Below the pieces are notes generated by a model. It saw only the letters and a list, made by a program, of their open reading frames with translations, was not told where the DNA came from and made no database searches. A DNA stretch of 64,000 nt from Pyrinomonas methylaliphatogenes (GTDB lineage Bacteria > Acidobacteriota > Blastocatellia > Pyrinomonadales > Pyrinomonadaceae): the NCBI RefSeq assembly GCF_000820845.2, contig NZ_CBXV010000006.1:124001-188000 (forward strand), written 5' to 3'. A program made the translations under genes and the position numbers. Positions 32,741 through 42,318 of this stretch are shown here, in pieces; positions within the stretch are counted from its first letter, which is position 1, and every line of letters begins with the position of its first letter.

Positions 32741-34150
32741 TCAGCTCAACTTCGGATGCCGCTCATGCCAAGCGGTCATTTGCTGATAGCGATGGGCGAC
32801 TTCGATCAAGAGATTTTCGCTGAACGCTGGGCCGATGAACTGTATGCCAGTGGGAAGATCGCTCTGACCGAAACCATTCGGCACGGAGATAGCCGGAACG
32901 CCCACCAAATTGCTCGCCCCGATCGGCGACGAAGCCGCGATGCCCGGATAGGCTTGATTGAAAGGCTTATCGAGCGGGTAGGCGACGGTCGAGCGCGACG
33001 GCGCGACGAGCACGTCGTACTTTTTGAACATCGCGGCCCACGCCCGACGCATCGGCGCGCGCATGCGCATCGCGTGAAGATAATCGACCGCCGTTACGAG
33101 CGAAGCCGCGTATCCGCCGACGCGCCCTTGCGGCGAGGCTAGTTCACGCACGCGCCCCGATTCGATCAGATCGCGAAAGGCGCTCGCGCCTTCGGCATCG
33201 ACGATCGTTCCGACCGCTGGGCCATATGGGAAGTCCGGCAGCGCGACATCCATCTCGACAGCAGCGAAGCGGCGGAGAACGTCGAGCGCACGCAGGAAAT
33301 TTTCGCGCACCTCGCGCTGCGCTTTCTCGTATGAATCCTTCATCACGGCGATGCGCAGACGCCGCAAAGGCATCGCGCGGCGCCGGAACGGATAGGAGAA
33401 TTTCACATCGCGCGTCGTCGGATCGAGCGGGTCCGGTCCAGCGATCGCCGCAAGCACCAGACCGCAATCGTCCGCCGTGCGGCACATCGGGCCGAGCTTG
33501 TCGAGCGTCCACGAAAGGGCCATCGCCCCATGCCGCGAAACCAGACCGTAAGTGGGGCGCAAACCCGCAACGCCACAGAAAGCCGCCGGCGTGATGATTG
33601 AACCGGAAGTCTCCGAACCGATGGCGAAGGCGACGAGTCCAGCGGCGACCGCGGCGCCCGGCCCGGAAGACGAACCGCCGCTCCAGTAGTTCAAGTTCCA
33701 CGGCGTGCGACATGGACCAGTGAAGGAAGCGCTCGCTTCGTTGTAACCCATGCCGCCCGCAAGCTCGATCATCGCCAGCTTCGCCACGAGCACGGCACCC
33801 GCTTCGCGCAGGCGGCGAATGACCGTCGCATCGTAGTCGAAGCGTTGATCTTTGTAAGGCGCCGCGCCCCACGTCGTCGGCGCGTTGCGCGTCGCAAGCA
33901 GATCCTTCGCGCCGTATGGGATGCCGTGCAGCGGCCCGCGCCAGCGTCCACGACGCAACTCGCGCTCTCGCTCGCGCGCCTCTTCAAGAGCCGCCTCGCG
34001 CATCACCGTGACCACGGCTCCAAGCCGCGGTCCGATACTCTCTAAACGGTCGAGATATATTTCCGCAAGTTCGACCGGCGAGAGCCGCCGCGTGCGTATC
34101 TGTTCGGCCAACTCGCGCACGGGAGCGAACGGAATCGTGTCGGGAAGCAT
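32741..34150 (-). CDS. Amidase signature family hydrolase
   Basis: 469 residues. Hydrolyses amides with a Ser-cisSer-Lys triad: Lys in GIPYGAKDLL, cis-Ser in WSGGSSSGPGAAVAAG and nucleophile Ser in GSETSGSI. The family includes GatA, but no gatB or gatC is adjacent, and the tail (HRYQQMTAWHERHP) is unlike GatA, so a free-standing amidase is more likely. ATG at 34150 is used. A TTG at 34162 overlaps the TGA of the upstream Uma2 gene as TTGA, which would mean coupled translation. No signal peptide is visible. Confidence 0.9.
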   Translation of the reverse strand: MLPDTIPFAPVRELAEQIRTRRLSPVELAEIYLDRLESIGPRLGAVVTVMREAALEEARERERELRRGRWRGPLHGIPYGAKDLLATRNAPTTWGAAPYKDQRFDYDATVIRRLREAGAVLVAKLAMIELAGGMGYNEASASFTGPCRTPWNLNYWSGGSSSGPGAAVAAGLVAFAIGSETSGSIITPAAFCGVAGLRPTYGLVSRHGAMALSWTLDKLGPMCRTADDCGLVLAAIAGPDPLDPTTRDVKFSYPFRRRAMPLRRLRIAVMKDSYEKAQREVRENFLRALDVLRRFAAVEMDVALPDFPYGPAVGTIVDAEGASAFRDLIESGRVRELASPQGRVGGYAASLVTAVDYLHAMRMRAPMRRAWAAMFKKYDVLVAPSRSTVAYPLDKPFNQAYPGIAASSPIGASNLVGVPAISVPNGFGQSDLPTGIQFIGPAFSENLLIEVAHRYQQMTAWHERHPKLS

Positions 34151-34158
34151 GGTTTTCG

Positions 34159-34719
34159 TCAAACCAAAATTTGGGCAACTTCTAAATGAAGATCGGGGAA
34201 AGCCTGCGGCGCGAGCGCATCGCCATATTTCAGACGTTTGAAGACTTGGTATGCGCCACTAACCGGTTGCGCATAAACTTCGATTAGGCTCTCCGTAAGA
34301 TCGATCAACCAGACTTCGACGACGCCTGCACGCGCATAGAGCGGGACTTTCAGCTTTCGATCGTACTCGACTGACGAATCCCCGACCTCAACGATCAACA
34401 ACACATCTTCAGGCGTCGGAGCGCTTTGCGAGTAGAAATCTTCGCGCCGCCGAAGAAGCGCGATGTCCGGTTCCGGCTCCGAACGTTCATCCAAACGAAC
34501 TGGATTCTGCACCCAGATGATCGCCGCGCTCTGCAAATATCGGCTGAACACTTCAGCGAGCTTTGCGACGCACGCGGCATGCCGCACACCGATTGGTGCC
34601 ATCTCGATGATCTCCCCGTCGATCAACTCCACACGATCGTCTTCTGTAAAGATACCCGCTGTAGCCATACGGTGATATTCGCTGACGGTGAAATGACGAC
34701 GCTCGATCTGCACGGACAT
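34159..34719 (-). CDS. Uma2 family (DUF820) putative restriction-endonuclease-like protein, copy 1
   Basis: 186 residues. Uma2 proteins have a PD-(D/E)xK nuclease fold and are often found in many copies per genome; their biological role is unknown. Core residues are visible: DDRVELIDGEIIEM, EPDIALLRRR, LLIVEVGDSSVEYDRKLKVPLYA and VVEVWLIDL. ATG at 34719 follows AAGGAGCGAGAGCG. It ends at the amidase start. The neighbouring copy at 34816-35373 is a clear paralogue, with the N-terminal third almost identical. Confidence 0.88.
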   Translation of the reverse strand: MSVQIERRHFTVSEYHRMATAGIFTEDDRVELIDGEIIEMAPIGVRHAACVAKLAEVFSRYLQSAAIIWVQNPVRLDERSEPEPDIALLRRREDFYSQSAPTPEDVLLIVEVGDSSVEYDRKLKVPLYARAGVVEVWLIDLTESLIEVYAQPVSGAYQVFKRLKYGDALAPQAFPDLHLEVAQILV

Positions 34720-34815
34720 CGCTCTCGCTCCTTGAAGATCCTTTCGCAAAATTCTATAACACAACGCTTCCGAGCATAAGCTCCACTCGACGGCCTGCGA
34801 TTGTCCGTCCGCGCC

Positions 34816-35373
34816 TCAGAAAATATCCGCGACTTCGAGATGAAGATCGGGGAAAGCCTGCGGCGCGAGCGTGTCGCCCCGTTTCAAATTTTCAAATTTT
34901 AAGTAACCTCCGCCAAACGGCTGGGCGTAGACTTCGACCGACTCTTCGACAAGATCGACCAGCCAAACTTCGGTGACCTGCGCTCGCGCATAGAGCGGAA
35001 CTTTGACCTTCCGGTCGTATTCAGCGGAAGAATCGCTCACTTCGACGATCAGAAAGACGTCGTTTGGCGTCGGAGCGCTTTGCGAGTAGAAATCTTCGCG
35101 CCGCCGAAGAAGCGCGATGTCCGGTTCCGGCTCTGAGTACTCGTCTAATCGAATAGGGTTTTGCACTCGAACGATCGCAGCGCGACCCAGCCGTTCCCGG
35201 AACCAATCAGCCAGCTTGTCAACGCACGCGGCATGTCGCACGCCGATTGGTGCCATCTCGATGATCTCCCCGTCGATCAACTCCACACGATCGTCTTCCG
35301 TTAAAATGCCCGCCTCGGCCATACGGTGATATTCGCTGACGGTGAAATGACGACGCTCGATCTGCACGGACAT
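34816..35373 (-). CDS. Uma2 family (DUF820) putative restriction-endonuclease-like protein, copy 2
   Basis: 185 residues, paralogue of the next gene. The same nuclease-core segments are present (DDRVELIDGEIIEM, EPDIALLRRR, LIVEVSDSSAEYDRKVKVP). It differs most at residues 52-70 and in the last third. The ribosome-binding region (GGGAGCGAGAGCG) and first 17 codons are nearly the same as in copy 1, indicating tandem duplication including the leader. The 96 bases between the copies show no insertion-sequence ends. Confidence 0.88.
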   Translation of the reverse strand: MSVQIERRHFTVSEYHRMAEAGILTEDDRVELIDGEIIEMAPIGVRHAACVDKLADWFRERLGRAAIVRVQNPIRLDEYSEPEPDIALLRRREDFYSQSAPTPNDVFLIVEVSDSSAEYDRKVKVPLYARAQVTEVWLVDLVEESVEVYAQPFGGGYLKFENLKRGDTLAPQAFPDLHLEVADIF

Positions 35374-35429
35374 CGCTCTCGCTCCCTAACAAGTACTTCT
35401 CGTTAATCAAGCCAACAGCGCGTAACCTT

Positions 35430-35771
35430 TTAAGCGCGGAAGATGAAATCGGGTTCGTCGCTGTTCTTCAGCTTGAATGCACGCAGTCGTTCGCTCGAAC
35501 GCGCGTAGCCATCGAGTTCACGCTTCAACCGATCCATCTCCTCGGAAGTCAACTGCTGGCCGAAGCGCGCGCGCGCAACTTCCGCATAGGCCTTGACAAG
35601 AGCTGAGGCTTTGGCCGCAGTTGAAGGCGCACTCTGAGCTGTGGCCGCCTGTTTCGCCTGAGCCTCGCCGCGGTGGGTCGTAAGTAGCGGCGCTGAGATC
35701 AGCGCCGCCGCTACGGATTTCGCAAAACGTCTCCGTTCGGGCCGCACATCCTGCCGCTTGCACTTCCCCAT
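35430..35771 (-). CDS. Small protein with twin-arginine-type signal, function unknown
   Basis: 113 residues. The N-terminus PERRRFAKSVAAALISAPLL fits a Tat signal (RRxFxK then a hydrophobic stretch). The rest is short and helical (LVKAYAEVARARFG, LTSEEMDRLKRELDGY) and ends LKNSDEPDFIFRA. From memory, small Tat-signal proteins with this ending occur beside oxidoreductases or amidases in Acidobacteriota; this is unchecked. If so, the amidase at 32.7-34.2 kb may be its partner, with the two Uma2 genes inserted between. GGAGG lies 6-7 bases before the ATG. Confidence 0.75.
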   Translation of the reverse strand: MGKCKRQDVRPERRRFAKSVAAALISAPLLTTHRGEAQAKQAATAQSAPSTAAKASALVKAYAEVARARFGQQLTSEEMDRLKRELDGYARSSERLRAFKLKNSDEPDFIFRA

Positions 35772-35817
35772 TTTGGGCCTCCACTCCGCATTTTCGCGCC
35801 TAAGATATTAGCGACCG

Positions 35818-35907
35818 CGCGCCTTCCCGTCCAGATCAACAGCGGATGGCGATGACGGCGGCGTGGCATAGAGCGAGTTAGCCACAACGCGCCTTCCCGT
35901 CCAGATC
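35818..35907 (+). repeat. 20-bp direct repeats upstream of kgd, 70-bp period
   Basis: Identical 20-mers CGCGCCTTCCCGTCCAGATC at 35818-35837 and 35888-35907, in the gap between the Tat-signal gene and kgd. The ending TCCAGATC and an ACAAC just before the second copy also occur in the four repeats at 40095-40333 on the other side of kgd. Confidence 0.7.
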
Positions 35908-35992
35908 GCCACACTCGCACCCCATGCGCTTCTCCGGATGCAATCTGCATCGGTTAGTGCTACTCTATTAGTTTAAGCGGTTGGCCTTTGAC

Positions 35993-38900
35993 ATGCGCAT
36001 TACCGCGAAAGTTCACGAGGACGCTGGCGAGATGAACCCAAACGGACGAAACGTGGATCTATCAGAATATATCGCAGAACATTTCGGCGCCAACGCCACC
36101 TATGTCGAGACGCTCTTCAATCGGTTTCGGAGCGATCCGAGCCTGGTGGACGAATCTTGGCGCGCCTATTTCACAGAGCTATTGAGCGAACTCGGCATCA
36201 ACGGCGAACAATTGCCCGAAGCGGTCGCCACACAACCGCCGAAACCGAAAGCGGTCGCCACCTCTGCAGCGACGGCCGTGATCGCTGAAGGCGAAGCGGA
36301 GCCGATTCGCGGGCCGGCGCTGAAGATCGTCGAGAACATGGAGACGAGCCTGTCGGTGCCGACCGCCACTTCGCAGCGGAAGGTGCCCGTCAAGGTTCTT
36401 GAAGAGAATCGCCTCATCATCAATCGCCACCTGCAACAGAAAGGGCGCGGCAAGGCCTCTTACACGCACTTGATCGCGTGGGCCATCGTGCGTGCGCTCG
36501 AAGCCTTCCCACGCCTGAACGATGCTTACGCCGTGGTCAACGGCGTTCCTTCGCGCATCCGTCGGCGCGAGATCAATCTCGGCATCGCCGTCGATCTCGA
36601 ACGCAAAGACGGCACGCGCTCGCTCGTCGTGCCGAACATCAAGAACGTCGGCGCGATGCGTTTTTCAGAGTTTCTCGCCGCCTACGACGACATCATCCGG
36701 CGCGCGCGCGACGGGAAACTCCAGGTCGCCGATTTTCAAGGCACCACCGTCTCCTTGACCAATCCGGGCACTATCGGCACGGTCGCATCCATGCCGCGCC
36801 TGATGGCCGGTCAATCGGTCATCATCGCCACGGGCGCGATCGAGTACCCGGCTGAGTATCAAGCGATGGCGCCTGAACTGCTGTCGCAACTGGCGATCAG
36901 CAAGGTCATCAACATCACGAGCACATATGACCACCGCATCATTCAGGGGGCCGAATCGGGCGCGTTCTTGGCTCGCATTCACGAACTGCTGCTCGGCGAG
37001 CACGATTTCTATCAAGAGATCTTCGCGGATCTTGGCATCCCCTATAAACCGATGCGCTGGTCGGTCGATCGTCTGCCGCCGATCTTCGATGCCGAGCATC
37101 AGCGCGAGCAGATGGTCAAACAGGTGCGCGTGCGCGAGTTGATCAACGCCTATCGCATTCGCGGCCACCTGATCGCCGATCTCGATCCGCTCCATGCGAT
37201 GCCCGTGCTCTATCATCCGGAGCTTGACATTGAAACTTACGGGCTGACGATCTGGGATCTGGATCGCGAGTTTGTCACCGGGGGGTTGGGCGGCGTCGAG
37301 CGCGCGACCTTGCGCCAGATCCTCGACATGCTCCATCGCTCCTACTGCGGCACGATCGGCGTCGAGTATCGCCACATCCAGAGCCTCGAACAGAAGCGCT
37401 GGTTGCAGGAGCGGTTGGAAGCGCCGCCCGAACCCGTGCCCGTCGAGGTCAAGAAGCAGATCCTCTGGAAGCTCATCTCCGCCGAGCAGTTCGAGCGTTT
37501 CCTGCACACGAAGTATCTGGGCCAGAAGCGTTTCTCGCTCGAAGGGACGGAGACGATCATCCCGCTCTTGGACCAGCTGATCGAAGGCGCGGCTCGGCGC
37601 GGCGTCGAAGATATCACCATCGGCATGGCCCATCGCGGGCGTTTGAACGTGCTGGCCAACGTCATCGGACGCTTCTGCGAACGGATCTTCGTCGCCTTCG
37701 AAGGATCGGTCCACCCGAACTTCCCGGCTGACGAGGGCGACGTCAAATACCACCAAGGCGCGACCGGCGTGCGCGAGACGGCTGACGGGCGACAGGTGCG
37801 TTTGACCGTCTCGCCCAACCCGAGCCATCTCGAAGCTGTCGATCCGGTGGTCGAGGGCATGGTTCGCGCCAAACAGGACATCGCCAAGGACGAACAGGGC
37901 CTCTCGCCGGAAGAAGCCTGGGCGCGCTACTTGCCCGTGCTGCTTCACGGCGATGCGGCCTTCGCCGGGCAGGGCGTCGTCATGGAGACGCTCAACCTCG
38001 CCGACCTCAAAGGGTATCGCACCGGCGGCACGATCCACATCATCATCAACAATCAGATCGGCTTTACCACTTCGCCTGAAGCCGGACGTTCGACCATCTA
38101 TTCGACCGACGTGGCGAAGATGACGCAGCTTCCGATCTTTCACGTCAACGCTGACGATCCGGAAGCGGCCTATCGCGTGCTTCAGATCGCGCTCGATTTT
38201 CGCCAGAAGTTCCACAAGGATGTGGTGATCGATCTGGTCGGTTTCCGCCGACTGGGCCACAACGAAACGGATGAGCCGAGTTACACGCAACCGCTCATGT
38301 ACGCGCGCGTGCGCGAGCACGAAGGCGTGCGCGTCAAATACGCGCGCCAGCTTATCCGCGAAGGCGTCATCACCGAAGAGGAACTGCAACAACTCATCGA
38401 AGAGCGCGTGCGCCGCTACGAAGAGGTCTGGGCGCGCGCCAAAGAGCAGGTCAAGCTGCGTCCGGCGCCGAAAGAGCTTCCGCCGCCCGTGCCCGAAGAG
38501 GACGGCTCAACGGTGATCGAAACGCCCGTCTCGGTCGAAGTGGTGCGCGAGATCGGACACAAGATCGCCGTTGTACCCGAAGGCTTCCACGTCAACCCGA
38601 AGATGGTCAGCCAACTGACGCGCCGTGCCAAGATGAGCGAAGGGCAAGCGCCGATCGATTGGGCGTTTGCCGAAGCGGTCGCCTTCGGCTCTTTGGTGAT
38701 CGAAGGCCGGCGCGTGCGCTTGAGCGGGCAGGATTCCGGGCGCGGCACCTTCAGCCAGCGCCACGCCGTGCTCTACGACACGCAAACGGGCGAAGCGTGG
38801 TCGCCGCTTGCGGAGCTTCGTTCGCCCGTCAATCCGACGGCGCGCTTCGAAGTCTACGATAGTTCTCTTTCGGAAGAGGGCGTGCTCGGCTTCGAGTACG

Positions 38901-39748
38901 GCTATTCGGTGGTCGCGCGCGATGCGCTCGTGATGTGGGAAGCGCAATTCGGCGACTTCGCCAACGGCGCGCAGATCATGATCGATCAGTTCATCGCTTC
39001 AGGCCAAGACAAATGGCAACAGCCGTCGCGCCTCACTCTGCTGCTCCCGCACGGCTACGAAGGGCAGGGGCCGGAGCATTCGAGCGCACGGCTCGAACGC
39101 TTCCTGCAACTGTGCGCCGAAAACAACATGACCGTCTGCTACCCGACGACTCCAGCGCAATACTTTCACCTTCTGCGCCGACAAGTGAAGCAAGAAGCGG
39201 CGCGTCCGCTCGTCGTGATGACGCCGAAGAGTTTGCTCCGCTTGCCGGCAGCGAGTTCGACGCTGGACCAGTTGACGTCGGGCGGGTTCCAACCCGTGCT
39301 CGATGACCCGGAGGTGAAGGATGCGTCGCGCGTGCATCGCGTGATCTTCTGTAGCGGCAAGGTCTATTACGATCTGAGCGAAGCGCGCAAGCGCTCGGAA
39401 GACGTGCGCATTGCCATCGTGCGTTTGGAGCAGCTCTATCCTTTCCCCGAAAGCGCTTTGCGTGCGGCGCTCGCGCGTTACGAACGAGCGCGCGAGTTCC
39501 TCTGGGTGCAAGAGGAGCCGAAGAACATGGGCGCTTGGACCTTCGTCCAACCGCGCATCGAAGCGCTGCTTCCCGAAGACGCGCGCTTGCGCTACGTCGG
39601 ACGCGCACCGTCGGCCAGTCCGGCGACCGGTTCGTACACGATTCACGAACTCGAACAACGCAAACTCGTGGACGAAGCGCTGATGGAAGACGCGCCCATC
39701 CTGTCCGAAGCGAGCAAGCGCACGCTCGCTGGCCAAGCGGCGGGATAA
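35993..39748 (+). CDS. kgd: Multifunctional 2-oxoglutarate dehydrogenase/decarboxylase (fused E2-E1)
   Basis: About 1251 residues. Oxidative decarboxylation of 2-oxoglutarate in the TCA cycle. An N-terminal E1 peripheral segment (YVETLFNRFRSDPSLVDESW) and an Ala/Pro linker come first. The succinyltransferase (E2) core follows, with catalytic TSTYDHRIIQGAESG near residue 315. The thiamine-dependent E1 part (about 380-1251) has TIGMAHRGRLNVLANV, HGDAAFAGQGVVMET, INNQIGFTTSPE and RRLGHNETDEP. There is no lipoyl domain, as in the actinobacterial KGD/OdhA type, so lipoate must come from another protein. ATG at 35993 is used; TTG at 35981 and ATG at 36032 (MNPNGRNVDL) are alternatives. Confidence 0.95.
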   Translation: MRITAKVHEDAGEMNPNGRNVDLSEYIAEHFGANATYVETLFNRFRSDPSLVDESWRAYFTELLSELGINGEQLPEAVATQPPKPKAVATSAATAVIAEGEAEPIRGPALKIVENMETSLSVPTATSQRKVPVKVLEENRLIINRHLQQKGRGKASYTHLIAWAIVRALEAFPRLNDAYAVVNGVPSRIRRREINLGIAVDLERKDGTRSLVVPNIKNVGAMRFSEFLAAYDDIIRRARDGKLQVADFQGTTVSLTNPGTIGTVASMPRLMAGQSVIIATGAIEYPAEYQAMAPELLSQLAISKVINITSTYDHRIIQGAESGAFLARIHELLLGEHDFYQEIFADLGIPYKPMRWSVDRLPPIFDAEHQREQMVKQVRVRELINAYRIRGHLIADLDPLHAMPVLYHPELDIETYGLTIWDLDREFVTGGLGGVERATLRQILDMLHRSYCGTIGVEYRHIQSLEQKRWLQERLEAPPEPVPVEVKKQILWKLISAEQFERFLHTKYLGQKRFSLEGTETIIPLLDQLIEGAARRGVEDITIGMAHRGRLNVLANVIGRFCERIFVAFEGSVHPNFPADEGDVKYHQGATGVRETADGRQVRLTVSPNPSHLEAVDPVVEGMVRAKQDIAKDEQGLSPEEAWARYLPVLLHGDAAFAGQGVVMETLNLADLKGYRTGGTIHIIINNQIGFTTSPEAGRSTIYSTDVAKMTQLPIFHVNADDPEAAYRVLQIALDFRQKFHKDVVIDLVGFRRLGHNETDEPSYTQPLMYARVREHEGVRVKYARQLIREGVITEEELQQLIEERVRRYEEVWARAKEQVKLRPAPKELPPPVPEEDGSTVIETPVSVEVVREIGHKIAVVPEGFHVNPKMVSQLTRRAKMSEGQAPIDWAFAEAVAFGSLVIEGRRVRLSGQDSGRGTFSQRHAVLYDTQTGEAWSPLAELRSPVNPTARFEVYDSSLSEEGVLGFEYGYSVVARDALVMWEAQFGDFANGAQIMIDQFIASGQDKWQQPSRLTLLLPHGYEGQGPEHSSARLERFLQLCAENNMTVCYPTTPAQYFHLLRRQVKQEAARPLVVMTPKSLLRLPAASSTLDQLTSGGFQPVLDDPEVKDASRVHRVIFCSGKVYYDLSEARKRSEDVRIAIVRLEQLYPFPESALRAALARYERAREFLWVQEEPKNMGAWTFVQPRIEALLPEDARLRYVGRAPSASPATGSYTIHELEQRKLVDEALMEDAPILSEASKRTLAGQAAG

Positions 39749-39822
39749 AATCGACGCCCAAAGCTTGGGCTTTCAGCAAAGAGGCCGCCTGAACTATTTC
39801 AGAAGTTCAATGGGGAAATCCG

Positions 39823-39859
39823 GAGGCGGAAGGATGCGCTGCAAGAATCCTTCCGCCTC
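39823..39859 (+). terminator. Hairpin downstream of kgd
   Basis: Arms GAGGCGGAAGGAT (39823-39835) and its exact complement (39847-39859), 13-bp stem with an 11-base loop, 75 bases past the kgd stop. No strong T-run follows. The stem sequence closely matches that of the palindrome at 14859-14892. Confidence 0.55.
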
Positions 39860-39925
39860 GATCCTTTAGACATGGACTTTCGTCGGCGCTTCGAAAGCGC
39901 GCGGTTGAAGGCCGCCCTGCCATCT

Positions 39926-40094
39926 ATTTGAAGTCGTTTGGCTCGATCCGCGCCGCGACTCCCGCGCGCTCTAAATGGCCGTCTCGCTCTCGATTGAAAC
40001 CGTTTGCCCTTTTCGAGCGTAGGGCAGGTTTTACTAGTCTTCGACCGGCGAGCGAGTTTCGCTCCTCTATTGAAACCGTTTGCCCTTTTCGAGC
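39926..40094 (+). repeat. CRISPR-like repeat family A: two 38/39-bp copies with a 37-bp spacer, plus a decayed copy
   Basis: Copies at 39981-40018 and 40056-40094 agree at 36 of 39 positions; the last 26 bases (39993-40018 and 40069-40094) are identical. The gap is 37 unrelated bases. Each contains ATTGAAAC, a hallmark of the 3' end of many type I and III CRISPR repeats, but here conserved sequence continues for another 18 bases. A diverged copy is at about 39926-39948. No cas genes are in the window, so I call it a repeat cluster and not an array. Confidence 0.6.
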
Positions 40095-40333
40095 ACAACC
40101 ACTTCACCCTGCGCTAGGTCAAACGCGAATGCGCGTTGATGTCAAGCATTGCCGAAACTGACAACCACTTCACTCTGCATCCAGATCAACGGTCTCCCGA
40201 CTGAATCTTTCGATCAATCGTTCGATCAACTCGACCAAATAACCACTTTGCCATACATCTAGATCAACCGCGCTCAGACGGCTCAAGACGCGACTGTGAC
40301 CGAGACAACCACTTTACCATACATCTAGATCAC
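40095..40333 (+). repeat. CRISPR-like repeat family B: four degenerate 28-29-bp copies
   Basis: Copies at 40095-40122, 40161-40189, 40239-40267 and 40305-40333, with consensus RYAACCACTTYRCYMTRC followed by ATCYAGATCAA. The intervening sequences are 38, 49 and 37 bases and unrelated to one another. The first copy starts directly at the end of family A. Copies 3 and 4 differ at only a few positions; copy 1 is the most diverged. The geometry equals a small CRISPR array; the divergence suggests decay or another repeat type. Confidence 0.6.
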
Positions 40334-40460
40334 CCTCATTCGGAGTCATGCGGTCGCTTCTGGCACCTCGATGCCGCCATCCCCAAGCCTTTTCGAGCAA
40401 AATCAGGCCCGCTAGCGACCGAGCAAGGTGTGTGCCGCCGCGCTGTCTTAAAAATCCCCC

Positions 40461-40488
40461 TTGACACCGCAAAAAAAAACGCTACATT
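40461..40488 (+). promoter_or_regulatory. Near-consensus sigma-70 promoter
   Basis: TTGACA (40461-40466), a 16-base spacer containing nine A residues, and TACATT (40483-40488). It is the best promoter match in the window, yet no convincing protein gene follows for hundreds of bases. The expected transcript start is near 40495. Confidence 0.6.
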
Positions 40489-40494
40489 GGCGTC

Positions 40495-40945
40495 CACGTT
40501 GTCAAGAAGGCGTGCCGCAGATCAATGTGATCTGCTGGTACAAGGTGCAGAGTTGATCCTTAACGTCAGACTCTCGCTGACGTATCGTACAGATAGCTTG
40601 GGCGCGTGGTCACCCCACCACCCTCGGAAGCGGCAACTCGATAGCCCCTGAACGCTCTCTCACTTGCGTTCGGGAAGCGGGACGAACAACCCAGGAGCAA
40701 GTCTAAGATGTTCACCTCGCCGCCTTCGCCTCCACCTGCCCGAAATGCCACTGTAAGCCATTGCTGGCTCACGATTCATCCAGAGAGAAGTTGGCCCGCG
40801 TGGTCGCTAGTGCGCGTTGCCACTGCTAACGGCTCAGCGCTCAGGAGGGCAGCCTTGTGGCGAAGGGCGACGAGATGGATGAGCGACAGCGGTCAAAGAA
40901 AAGCCTCGCCAGCACACCAGCCAGTGCACTGACGAGGCTTGCTTA
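40495..40945 (+). ncRNA. Candidate structured non-coding RNA
   Basis: Non-coding sequence directly downstream of the strong promoter with closely spaced perfect or near-perfect hairpins: GCAGATCA-ATG-TGATCTGC (40517-40535), ACGTCAG...CTGACGT (40563-40583), CCTGAACGC...GCGTTCGGG with one G-T pair (40647-40674), AGCCA-TTGC-TGGCT (40756-40769), and a closing AAGCCTCG...CGAGGCTT (40901-40940) that could end transcription. The third-position GC bias seen in neighbouring genes is absent. I looked for and did not find RNase P, tmRNA, or cobalamin-riboswitch signatures. Extent and strand are inferred from promoter direction. Confidence 0.35.
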
Positions 40946-41050
40946 TCAACCATGACCTCTGCGCCACCCTTGCGCAAAGGTGCAGGCACGCGACACACAT
41001 CTTAGCGCAGGGCGGCGCAAGGTCCCAAACACAGAAAGGGGATTTCAAAA

Positions 41051-41308
41051 ATGCGTGGACACTTCGCGCCCCCTACCAGCCTAATAATGACTCTGGTGCT
41101 TCTTTCCTTAACGCCAACTGATGCGCCCCTTCGATCCCTCTTAACTACGAGACAAAGCGGGAGAGCGGACGCGCCTTGCCTAGCTAATAGCCAAGGCCAT
41201 TTACCCATACAACTCGGCTATTCCACCTCCAATTCGGCTTTTACTCACATATCGCCAATCCTAGCCGAGTTCGATAATCCTAGGCAACACGTTAGGCTCT
41301 CGCCATAG
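41051..41308 (+). CDS. Possible small secreted protein
   Basis: An 85-codon frame with AAGGGG 9 bases before ATG. The N-terminus MRGHFAPPTSLIMTLVLLSL followed by TPTDA looks like a signal peptide. The remainder has no recognisable family and little codon bias. Two inverted repeats (41173-41197 and 41211-41271) lie inside it, so the region could instead be part of a structured RNA. I include it because the ribosome-binding site and signal-like start coincide. Confidence 0.25.
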   Translation: MRGHFAPPTSLIMTLVLLSLTPTDAPLRSLLTTRQSGRADAPCLANSQGHLPIQLGYSTSNSAFTHISPILAEFDNPRQHVRLSP

Positions 41309-41384
41309 GGTCAAGGCGAAAACTTCTAGATTTTCAGCTCAATTCCAGTTCGGTATAAAGTTAGATGAATGTGCGCGCCTAACG
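41173..41384. other. Further inverted repeats of the non-coding locus
   Basis: GCCTTG/CAAGGC (41173-41178 and 41192-41197), the exact 10-bp pair AACTCGGCTA/TAGCCGAGTT (41211-41220 and 41262-41271) with a rival left arm AATTCGGCTT between them, and CGTTAGGC/GCCTAACG (41290-41297 and 41377-41384). Alternative left arms competing for one right arm is the kind of arrangement seen in switchable RNAs, but this is only suggestive. Confidence 0.4.
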
Positions 41385-41409
41385 GTTAAGACCGATGCCA
41401 CTATTACAG

Positions 41410-42138
41410 CTAGCCGAAGATCATCTTCAATCCAGCGACCACCAGCACGAGCGCTAGCACGCGGCGGAGCGTTCGCGGAGGCAAACGACGTCGCCCCAAC
41501 TCTGAACCGATCAGTCCGCCGATGAGCGCAGCAGCGGCCCAGAACGGGAAGGAACTCGGAAGCAATCGCAGGCTCGCCGGATTGCCCATCAACCCGGCTG
41601 CCGAATTGACGAAGATGAAGGCAGCGGAAATGCCTGCGGTCTGTCGCGCCGTCGCCCACCCGGCCAATATCAACAGCGGACTAAGGAAGATGCCACCGCC
41701 GACGCCCGTCAATCCTGACAACAACCCGATCAATCCGCCGAGCAGAAGCGCGAGCGCAAGAGGCGGATCTTTCACCTCTTCGCTCCCTCCGCGCAGGCTG
41801 GTCCACAAACGCCACGCAGCGAAGAGCAGCACGCACCCGACGAGCGGTTTATAAACGCGCGTCGGAAGGTGTATGCTCCCGCCGAGATAGGCTGCCGGAA
41901 TGGACGCCGCGGCGAACATCGAGAAGAGGCGCCACGAAAAGTGGCCTTCGCGATAGAATTGCAGAGCGGCGATCAGCGAGACGATCAGGTTGAGCGTGAG
42001 CGCGCTCGGGCGCATGATCTCTGGCGGAACGCCGAAAAGGGCCATCGCGGCTAGATAGCCCGATGCTCCACCATGCCCGACCGAAGAGTAAAGAAGGGCC
42101 ATTAAGAAGATCGCCATCGGCAAAAATAGCAGCTTCAT
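41410..42138 (-). CDS. TauE/SafE family sulfite/organosulfonate exporter-like permease
   Basis: 242 residues, almost all hydrophobic, giving about seven to eight membrane helices in two repeats. YSSVGHGGASGYLAAMA in the first half and LSGLTGVGGGIFLSPLLI in the second are the family signatures. Substrate is not predictable; members move sulfite, sulfonates or other anions. ATG at 42138 follows GAGG by 10 bases and begins MKLLFLPMA; an upstream in-frame start at 42192 would add a charged, unlikely leader. Confidence 0.9.
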   Translation of the reverse strand: MKLLFLPMAIFLMALLYSSVGHGGASGYLAAMALFGVPPEIMRPSALTLNLIVSLIAALQFYREGHFSWRLFSMFAAASIPAAYLGGSIHLPTRVYKPLVGCVLLFAAWRLWTSLRGGSEEVKDPPLALALLLGGLIGLLSGLTGVGGGIFLSPLLILAGWATARQTAGISAAFIFVNSAAGLMGNPASLRLLPSSFPFWAAAALIGGLIGSELGRRRLPPRTLRRVLALVLVVAGLKMIFG

Positions 42139-42318
42139 GAAGCAGAACCTCGGTGCGAAATCCCGCTCGACCGTCGGATCGAAACGACGCAAAGGTTACG
42201 CGACCGGACCATAAGTTTACACCAATCCGATGAAATCCGAAGGTTCGGCGTCGCGGTCAAAGACGTTTTTGAAATGCGGCGGACCGCTTCAAACTTCCGC
42301 CCTTTTGCGGAGCGTGCG

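Follow-up and report, generated by a model that had tools for sequence, protein, structure and literature searches.

Large ornate non-coding RNAs, among them OLE, GOLLD, ROOL and similar families, were recognised by their conservation across species and by covariation; long structured 5′ leaders of bacterial mRNAs include attenuators and riboswitch-like elements. An intergenic interval of Pyrinomonas methylaliphatogenes K22, a heat-loving soil bacterium, had been proposed in a sequence-only reading to encode a long ornate RNA behind a strong promoter. We find that the region from about 40495 to 41030 is non-coding and unusually rich in hairpins. Our tentative interpretation is that it represents the promoter and structured untranslated leader of a strain-variable gene slot, orphaned in K22, and we weigh this below against other explanations.

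Promoter, hairpins and coding potential

All positions refer to the window, the whole 64-kb stretch of DNA that was analysed, which lies in contig C6. The interval follows a gene at 35981–39748 that, judging from its sequence, we take to be 2-oxoglutarate dehydrogenase-like, and it is bounded on the other side by a TauE-family gene (Table 1). The assembly comprises 3,788,560 bases in 16 contigs; the genome size and scaffold number of P. methylaliphatogenes K22 are printed in PMC4644332. The TTGACA-16-TACATT promoter described previously is indeed present and of fair quality; across both strands of the window, just one other site reaches 10 or more of 12 hexamer matches. At a looser threshold of 9/12, a single promoter site was identified within 39740–41420, where 0.8 would be expected by chance.

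Table 1. Features of the intergenic interval and its borders (window coordinates).
Feature	Position	Strand	Remarks
Sigma-70-like promoter, TTGACA-16-TACATT	40461–40488	+	hexamer match 10/12
Predicted untranslated leader, ~556 nt	40495–41050	+	fold z; transcription start predicted from promoter
Predicted multi-branched domain, closed by long-range 6-bp helix	40506–40727	+	folding
Hairpin A, 8-bp perfect stem	40517–40535	+	
Hairpin B, 7-bp perfect stem	40563–40583	+	
Hairpin C, 9-bp stem including one G-U pair	40647–40674	+	
Small frame proposed earlier	40708–40932	+	gene status not supported: stop in MAG, no codon-like substitution
Hairpin D, arms 40901–40940	40896–40944		terminator-like on minus strand (T-rich tail after stem)
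Hairpin E, immediately 5′ of ribosome-binding site	40954–41024	+	C-G to U-A double change, 40968/41011
Zone where homology to MAG fades, then ends	40965–41028		alignment
85-codon frame, no known family	41051–41308	+	start codon 30 bases past GGTC closing hairpin E, as in MAG
Inverted repeat, 10-bp perfect arms, K22 only	41211–41271		
TauE-family gene	41410–42192	−	ends at 41410

The four inverted repeats quoted in the sequence-only reading (hairpins A, B and D and the K22-only repeat) proved exact, with perfect arms of 8, 7, 8 and 10 bp, respectively. Its count of at least eight such repeats is reached only when imperfect ones are admitted, as there are six perfect stems of at least 7 bp. Between 40490 and 41400, perfect stems of at least 8 bp number four, compared with 0.63 (sd 0.77) in shuffled sequences, a count equalled in 0 of 100 shuffles; the six stems of at least 7 bp compare with 2.5 (4 of 100 shuffles equal), and the one stem of at least 9 bp was equalled in 8 of 100. 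Folding of 40495–41050 gave a z-score of −3.99 relative to shuffles (−3.34 with other shuffles), and all 60 of 60 random 556-nt windows taken from the 64 kb fold more weakly, the lowest having a z of −3.04. The 531-nt counterpart of the leader in an uncultured Pyrinomonas MAG, introduced below, reaches −4.79. The minus strand of the same K22 interval is about as structured (z −3.41). In a 200-nt scan, for which 80 random windows provided the background (mean z −0.23, sd 1.05, lowest −3.33), the signal at 40400–40599 is far stronger on the plus strand (−4.11) than on the minus strand (−1.46), and that at 40800–41099 is found on both. The remainder of the interval originally proposed, 41028–41410, folds no better than chance (z −0.46); the earlier extent of about 850 bases is thus too long, with the structured part common to K22 and the MAG stopping near 41028.

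None of 4227 Rfam covariance models matched anywhere in the window at the gathering score. When E values up to 5 were admitted for 39740–41420, there was no match in the leader and one microRNA-family match outside it, far below threshold, and a tRNA/tmRNA search likewise returned nothing in the leader. These results agree with the earlier failure to find signatures of RNase P RNA, tmRNA or common riboswitches. The statement that the interval holds no convincing coding frame is also borne out for the small frames tested, with no Pfam match for three plus-strand frames and no NCBIfam match for two frames at the locus. A small protein beginning at 40708, previously left as an option, is contradicted by the MAG, in which a TGA at 40876–40878 interrupts the frame; the substitutions between the two sequences fall 2/4/5 at codon positions 1/2/3, and 7 of the 11 changed codons are non-synonymous. 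This coding test took in both strands and covered eight informative frames, in which substitutions occur, plus a ninth lacking any, and placed MAG stops in the 40708 frame, in the frame that contains it and in 40566–40775 (minus). The other frames are open in the MAG with few changes each, so the coding test cannot rule them out. At the position of the K22 41051 frame, the MAG sequence is unrelated.

Relatives of the predicted leader and the shared segment

Promoter and leader were found together in one other genome only, the uncultured Pyrinomonas MAG (contig CAKZOF010000425.1, hereafter C425), whose promoter reads TTGACT-17-TACATT, differing from that of K22 by one inserted base and one change in the −35 element. 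A DNA search of 60 relatives, with up to five candidates scored per genome, gave any match in just 4 of 60, K22 itself included, and beyond K22 and the MAG these span only 31–42 bases. Extension to 162 genomes of the class (E up to 0.1, up to three candidates scored per genome) gave matches in 32; all but those in K22 and the MAG are 19–44 bases long and are taken as chance, and several land on a GC-rich stretch at 40711–40745. A covariance model of 40499–40730, made from two sequences and searched with stricter filters, matched in 4 of the 162 genomes, two of the matches being weak (E 0.04 and 0.26). Pattern scanning found the MAG together with two Amycolatopsis contigs among genome contigs and nothing among viral contigs; plasmid and phage searches were negative. 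Conservation in relatives amounts to one MAG copy, with no homologue found further out among either the 60 relatives or the 162 class genomes, and the recurrence in the MAG may be regarded as weak evidence of conservation.

Over 40495–40967, the two sequences differ by 14 substitutions with no gap. To the left, where the DNA is carried by MAG contig C89 (placed next to C425 on the basis of K22 order), identity to K22 in 250-base bins is 64–85% up to 31.9 kb, whereas from 33.0 to 41.0 kb (C89 and C425) it is 92–100% in 28 of 32 bins, the other four being at 74–77% (34.75–35.25 kb) and 87–90% (35.75–36.25 kb). The sole long matches to the MAG on the right of the leader lie at 47.6–52.0 kb, at 72–78%. 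The high-identity stretch, approximately 32766–41028 or about 8 kb, ends inside the leader and is set between DNA of 64–85% identity. It looks like a recently exchanged segment, which would explain the step in identity from 64–85% to 92–100%. Taken by itself, C425 could be a stray contig of a closer strain; this is not enough for C89, since the step occurs within that single contig. The C-terminus of the dehydrogenase has one match in the MAG, 100% identical over 399 amino acids.

Resemblance to a single relative may stem from such a recently shared segment, and neighbouring synonymous sites should be compared before conservation of an RNA is claimed. Changes in the leader (14/473) do not differ from those at 4-fold sites of the adjoining gene (7/340, p 0.51), and its first half (40495–40732, which holds the predicted multi-branched domain), with 3/238 positions changed, is not below these sites either (p 0.54), although it is below the upstream intergenic DNA (20/362, p 0.008). 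In an amidase-like gene of the same stretch (32741–34162), 4-fold sites are changed far more often (38/285), so the first half of the leader may still be under some constraint. Because the leader lies inside the high-identity stretch and evolves no more slowly than adjoining 4-fold sites, the case for RNA conservation is weak.

Nor do the substitutions appear to respect the fold. The 14 changes in 40495–40967 break 8 pairs of the K22 fold, compared with 6.7 on average at random, and 16% of 400 random mutants equal or surpass the MAG sequence in folding; the reverse comparison gives 19%, with 3 pairs broken versus 3.1. Real substitutions thus break pairs as often as random ones, giving no sign of selection on this fold. 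A consensus fold of K22 and the MAG contains 165 pairs, none broken and two changed on both sides, but as it was fitted to both sequences while the K22-only fold is broken as at random, it lends no support beyond hairpin E. In that hairpin, 9 of 21 substitutions fall in the stem and break 4 pairs versus 6.7 expected, with 6.75% of 2000 trials as good, and the two sequences compared show one clear compensatory pair, C-G to U-A at 40968/41011. This is a hint only that selection may have retained the stem. No covariation was seen in the 40506–40727 domain. With a single homologue, in the MAG, substitutions in 40495–40967 that carry no structure signal, and one compensatory pair in hairpin E, the long ornate RNA of the sequence-only reading is unsupported as such.

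A possible variable slot and competing explanations

Past the homology break, the MAG carries a cluster of same-strand genes. The first, of 85 codons, apparently encodes a short secreted protein with, as read from its sequence, a hydrophobic N-terminus and many Cys residues; a protein weakly resembling DsbE and then proteins of 619 and 451 amino acids follow. K22 has instead about 375 bases of unrelated DNA and then the end of the TauE-family gene. After the break the G+C content is 49.1% in K22 and 50.7% in the MAG, compared with 59.8% for the whole window, and in both sequences a start codon stands 30 bases past the same GGTC, preceded by a purine-rich site. The MAG first gene has no match in the K22 genome, and the 619-residue protein has only paralogues elsewhere in it, at no more than 35% identity. 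Homology between the 85-codon K22 frame and the 85-codon MAG gene was considered and rejected, as they share no similarity, and their equal length is taken as coincidence.

The 619-residue family (MAG copy L009 1713–3572, minus) occurs in 65 of the 162 class genomes, often in multiple and tandem copies, and gives no strong match in Pfam or NCBIfam. When 29 loci of this family (L040–L068; 28 from other genomes and that of the MAG, with flanks of 1.5 kb at most, less where a contig ends) were inspected by eye, a similar Cys-rich peptide was seen in the MAG only. Searching extracted loci by tblastn with the Cys-rich peptide and the DsbE-like protein recovered the MAG's own copies, and the peptide gave one further weak match (E 0.023), at a place where another search had also produced a weak hit, in a frame with stops.

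According to the leader interpretation that we tentatively prefer, the promoter would drive a hairpin-rich non-coding leader, about 550 nt long, leading into whichever gene occupies a variable slot behind the 2-oxoglutarate dehydrogenase-like gene. The MAG slot would hold the cluster of the Cys-rich, DsbE-like, 619-residue and 451-residue proteins; K22 would have lost, or never had, this cluster, its leader now running into AT-richer DNA with the 85-codon frame. As the MAG cluster is absent from K22 and unrelated DNA follows, the K22 leader is probably orphaned. Hairpin E, lying before the ribosome-binding site, may be the controlling element, and the leader may be transcribed and control the slot gene. 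This interpretation is supported by the alignment of promoter and leader in the two genomes, with homology stopping just before equally spaced start codons, and by the hairpin excess, the z-scores, the stem of hairpin E and the AT-richer DNA past the break in both. By sequence, the MAG has a promoter and structured untranslated region co-linear with a downstream gene, and K22 has the 85-codon frame only. Against it, there are two sequences, recently related here, the K22 fold is broken as at random and the minus strand folds equally. Because the MAG first gene is unrelated to what stands in its place in K22, any functional coupling of leader and cargo is conjectural. A stronger version, in which a structured, Pyrinomonas-specific RNA leader some 530 nt long forms a constant regulatory cassette to which different strains join different cargo genes, seems quite doubtful; if correct, it would offer an attractive example of modular gene capture in Acidobacteriota.

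Only slightly less probable than the preferred leader is that the interval is intergenic DNA, neutral or in decay, whose hairpins arose by chance and which travelled with a segment exchanged recently. Its divergence equals that of neighbouring 4-fold sites, its substitutions ignore the fold and no homologue was found beyond the genus. The adjoining sequence further suggests that this gap gathers debris: 39989–40334 contains two families of degenerate 28–30 nt repeats at a spacing of 66–78 bases, for which a genome search at up to three mismatches found no further copies, and the MAG array is short of one unit of about 76 bp. A 37-nt interval within it (40269–40305; one base different in the MAG copy) matches perfectly elsewhere in the same genome, close to the 3′ end of an AcrB-family efflux gene of 1086 codons (loci listed for array and self-match: L007 1501–1537 and L010 6376–6412). 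K22 has two Cas1 matches and intact arrays with other repeats, and we read 39989–40334 as a putative relic CRISPR array with a self-matching spacer. What neutral decay would not readily predict is an excess of 8-bp stems seen in none of 100 shuffles, a z-score below all 60 random windows, and a promoter and equally spaced start codons kept in both genomes.

A second cluster of 30-nt repeats, irregular and with 57–68 bases between copies, was noted on contig C5 (L074 2082–2372), a short way past the final copy listed for that contig's main CRISPR array.

A free-standing structured non-coding RNA transcribed from the 40461 promoter, with its compact domain at about 40506–40727 and limited to the genus, is unlikely. 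The fold z-scores of both genomes, the plus-strand bias at 40400–40599 and the few changes in the domain relative to upstream intergenic DNA and to the amidase-like 4-fold sites would fit it, but the changes are not fewer than at adjoining 4-fold sites, the covariance model gives only two weak matches beyond K22 and the MAG in 162 genomes, the domain lacks covariation and no plus-strand terminator was found in a scan. It is kept among the alternatives because the K22 and MAG sequences are too alike to test it. That hairpin D serves to terminate minus-strand transcripts, for example of the TauE-family gene, with the plus-strand reading incidental, is highly improbable, for although the stem (40940–40901) precedes a T-rich tail on that strand and the gene runs towards it, the hairpin lies about 470 nt past the gene end, its run of T residues is broken in the MAG, which has no DNA match to the K22 TauE gene, and one hairpin only would be accounted for.

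Comparison with known systems

With large ornate RNAs such as OLE, GOLLD and ROOL, the locus shares an abundance of stems and a size of at least roughly half a kilobase, but it matches none of the 4227 Rfam models, and the cross-species conservation and covariation that mark those families are here limited to one MAG and a single base pair. Compared with long structured 5′ leaders, it differs in having no Rfam match or known ligand class and in that no recognisable gene follows it in K22. It nonetheless resembles them in its general layout, in which a promoter is followed by a stem-bearing untranslated stretch several hundred bases long, then by a stem immediately ahead of the ribosome-binding site and a start codon.
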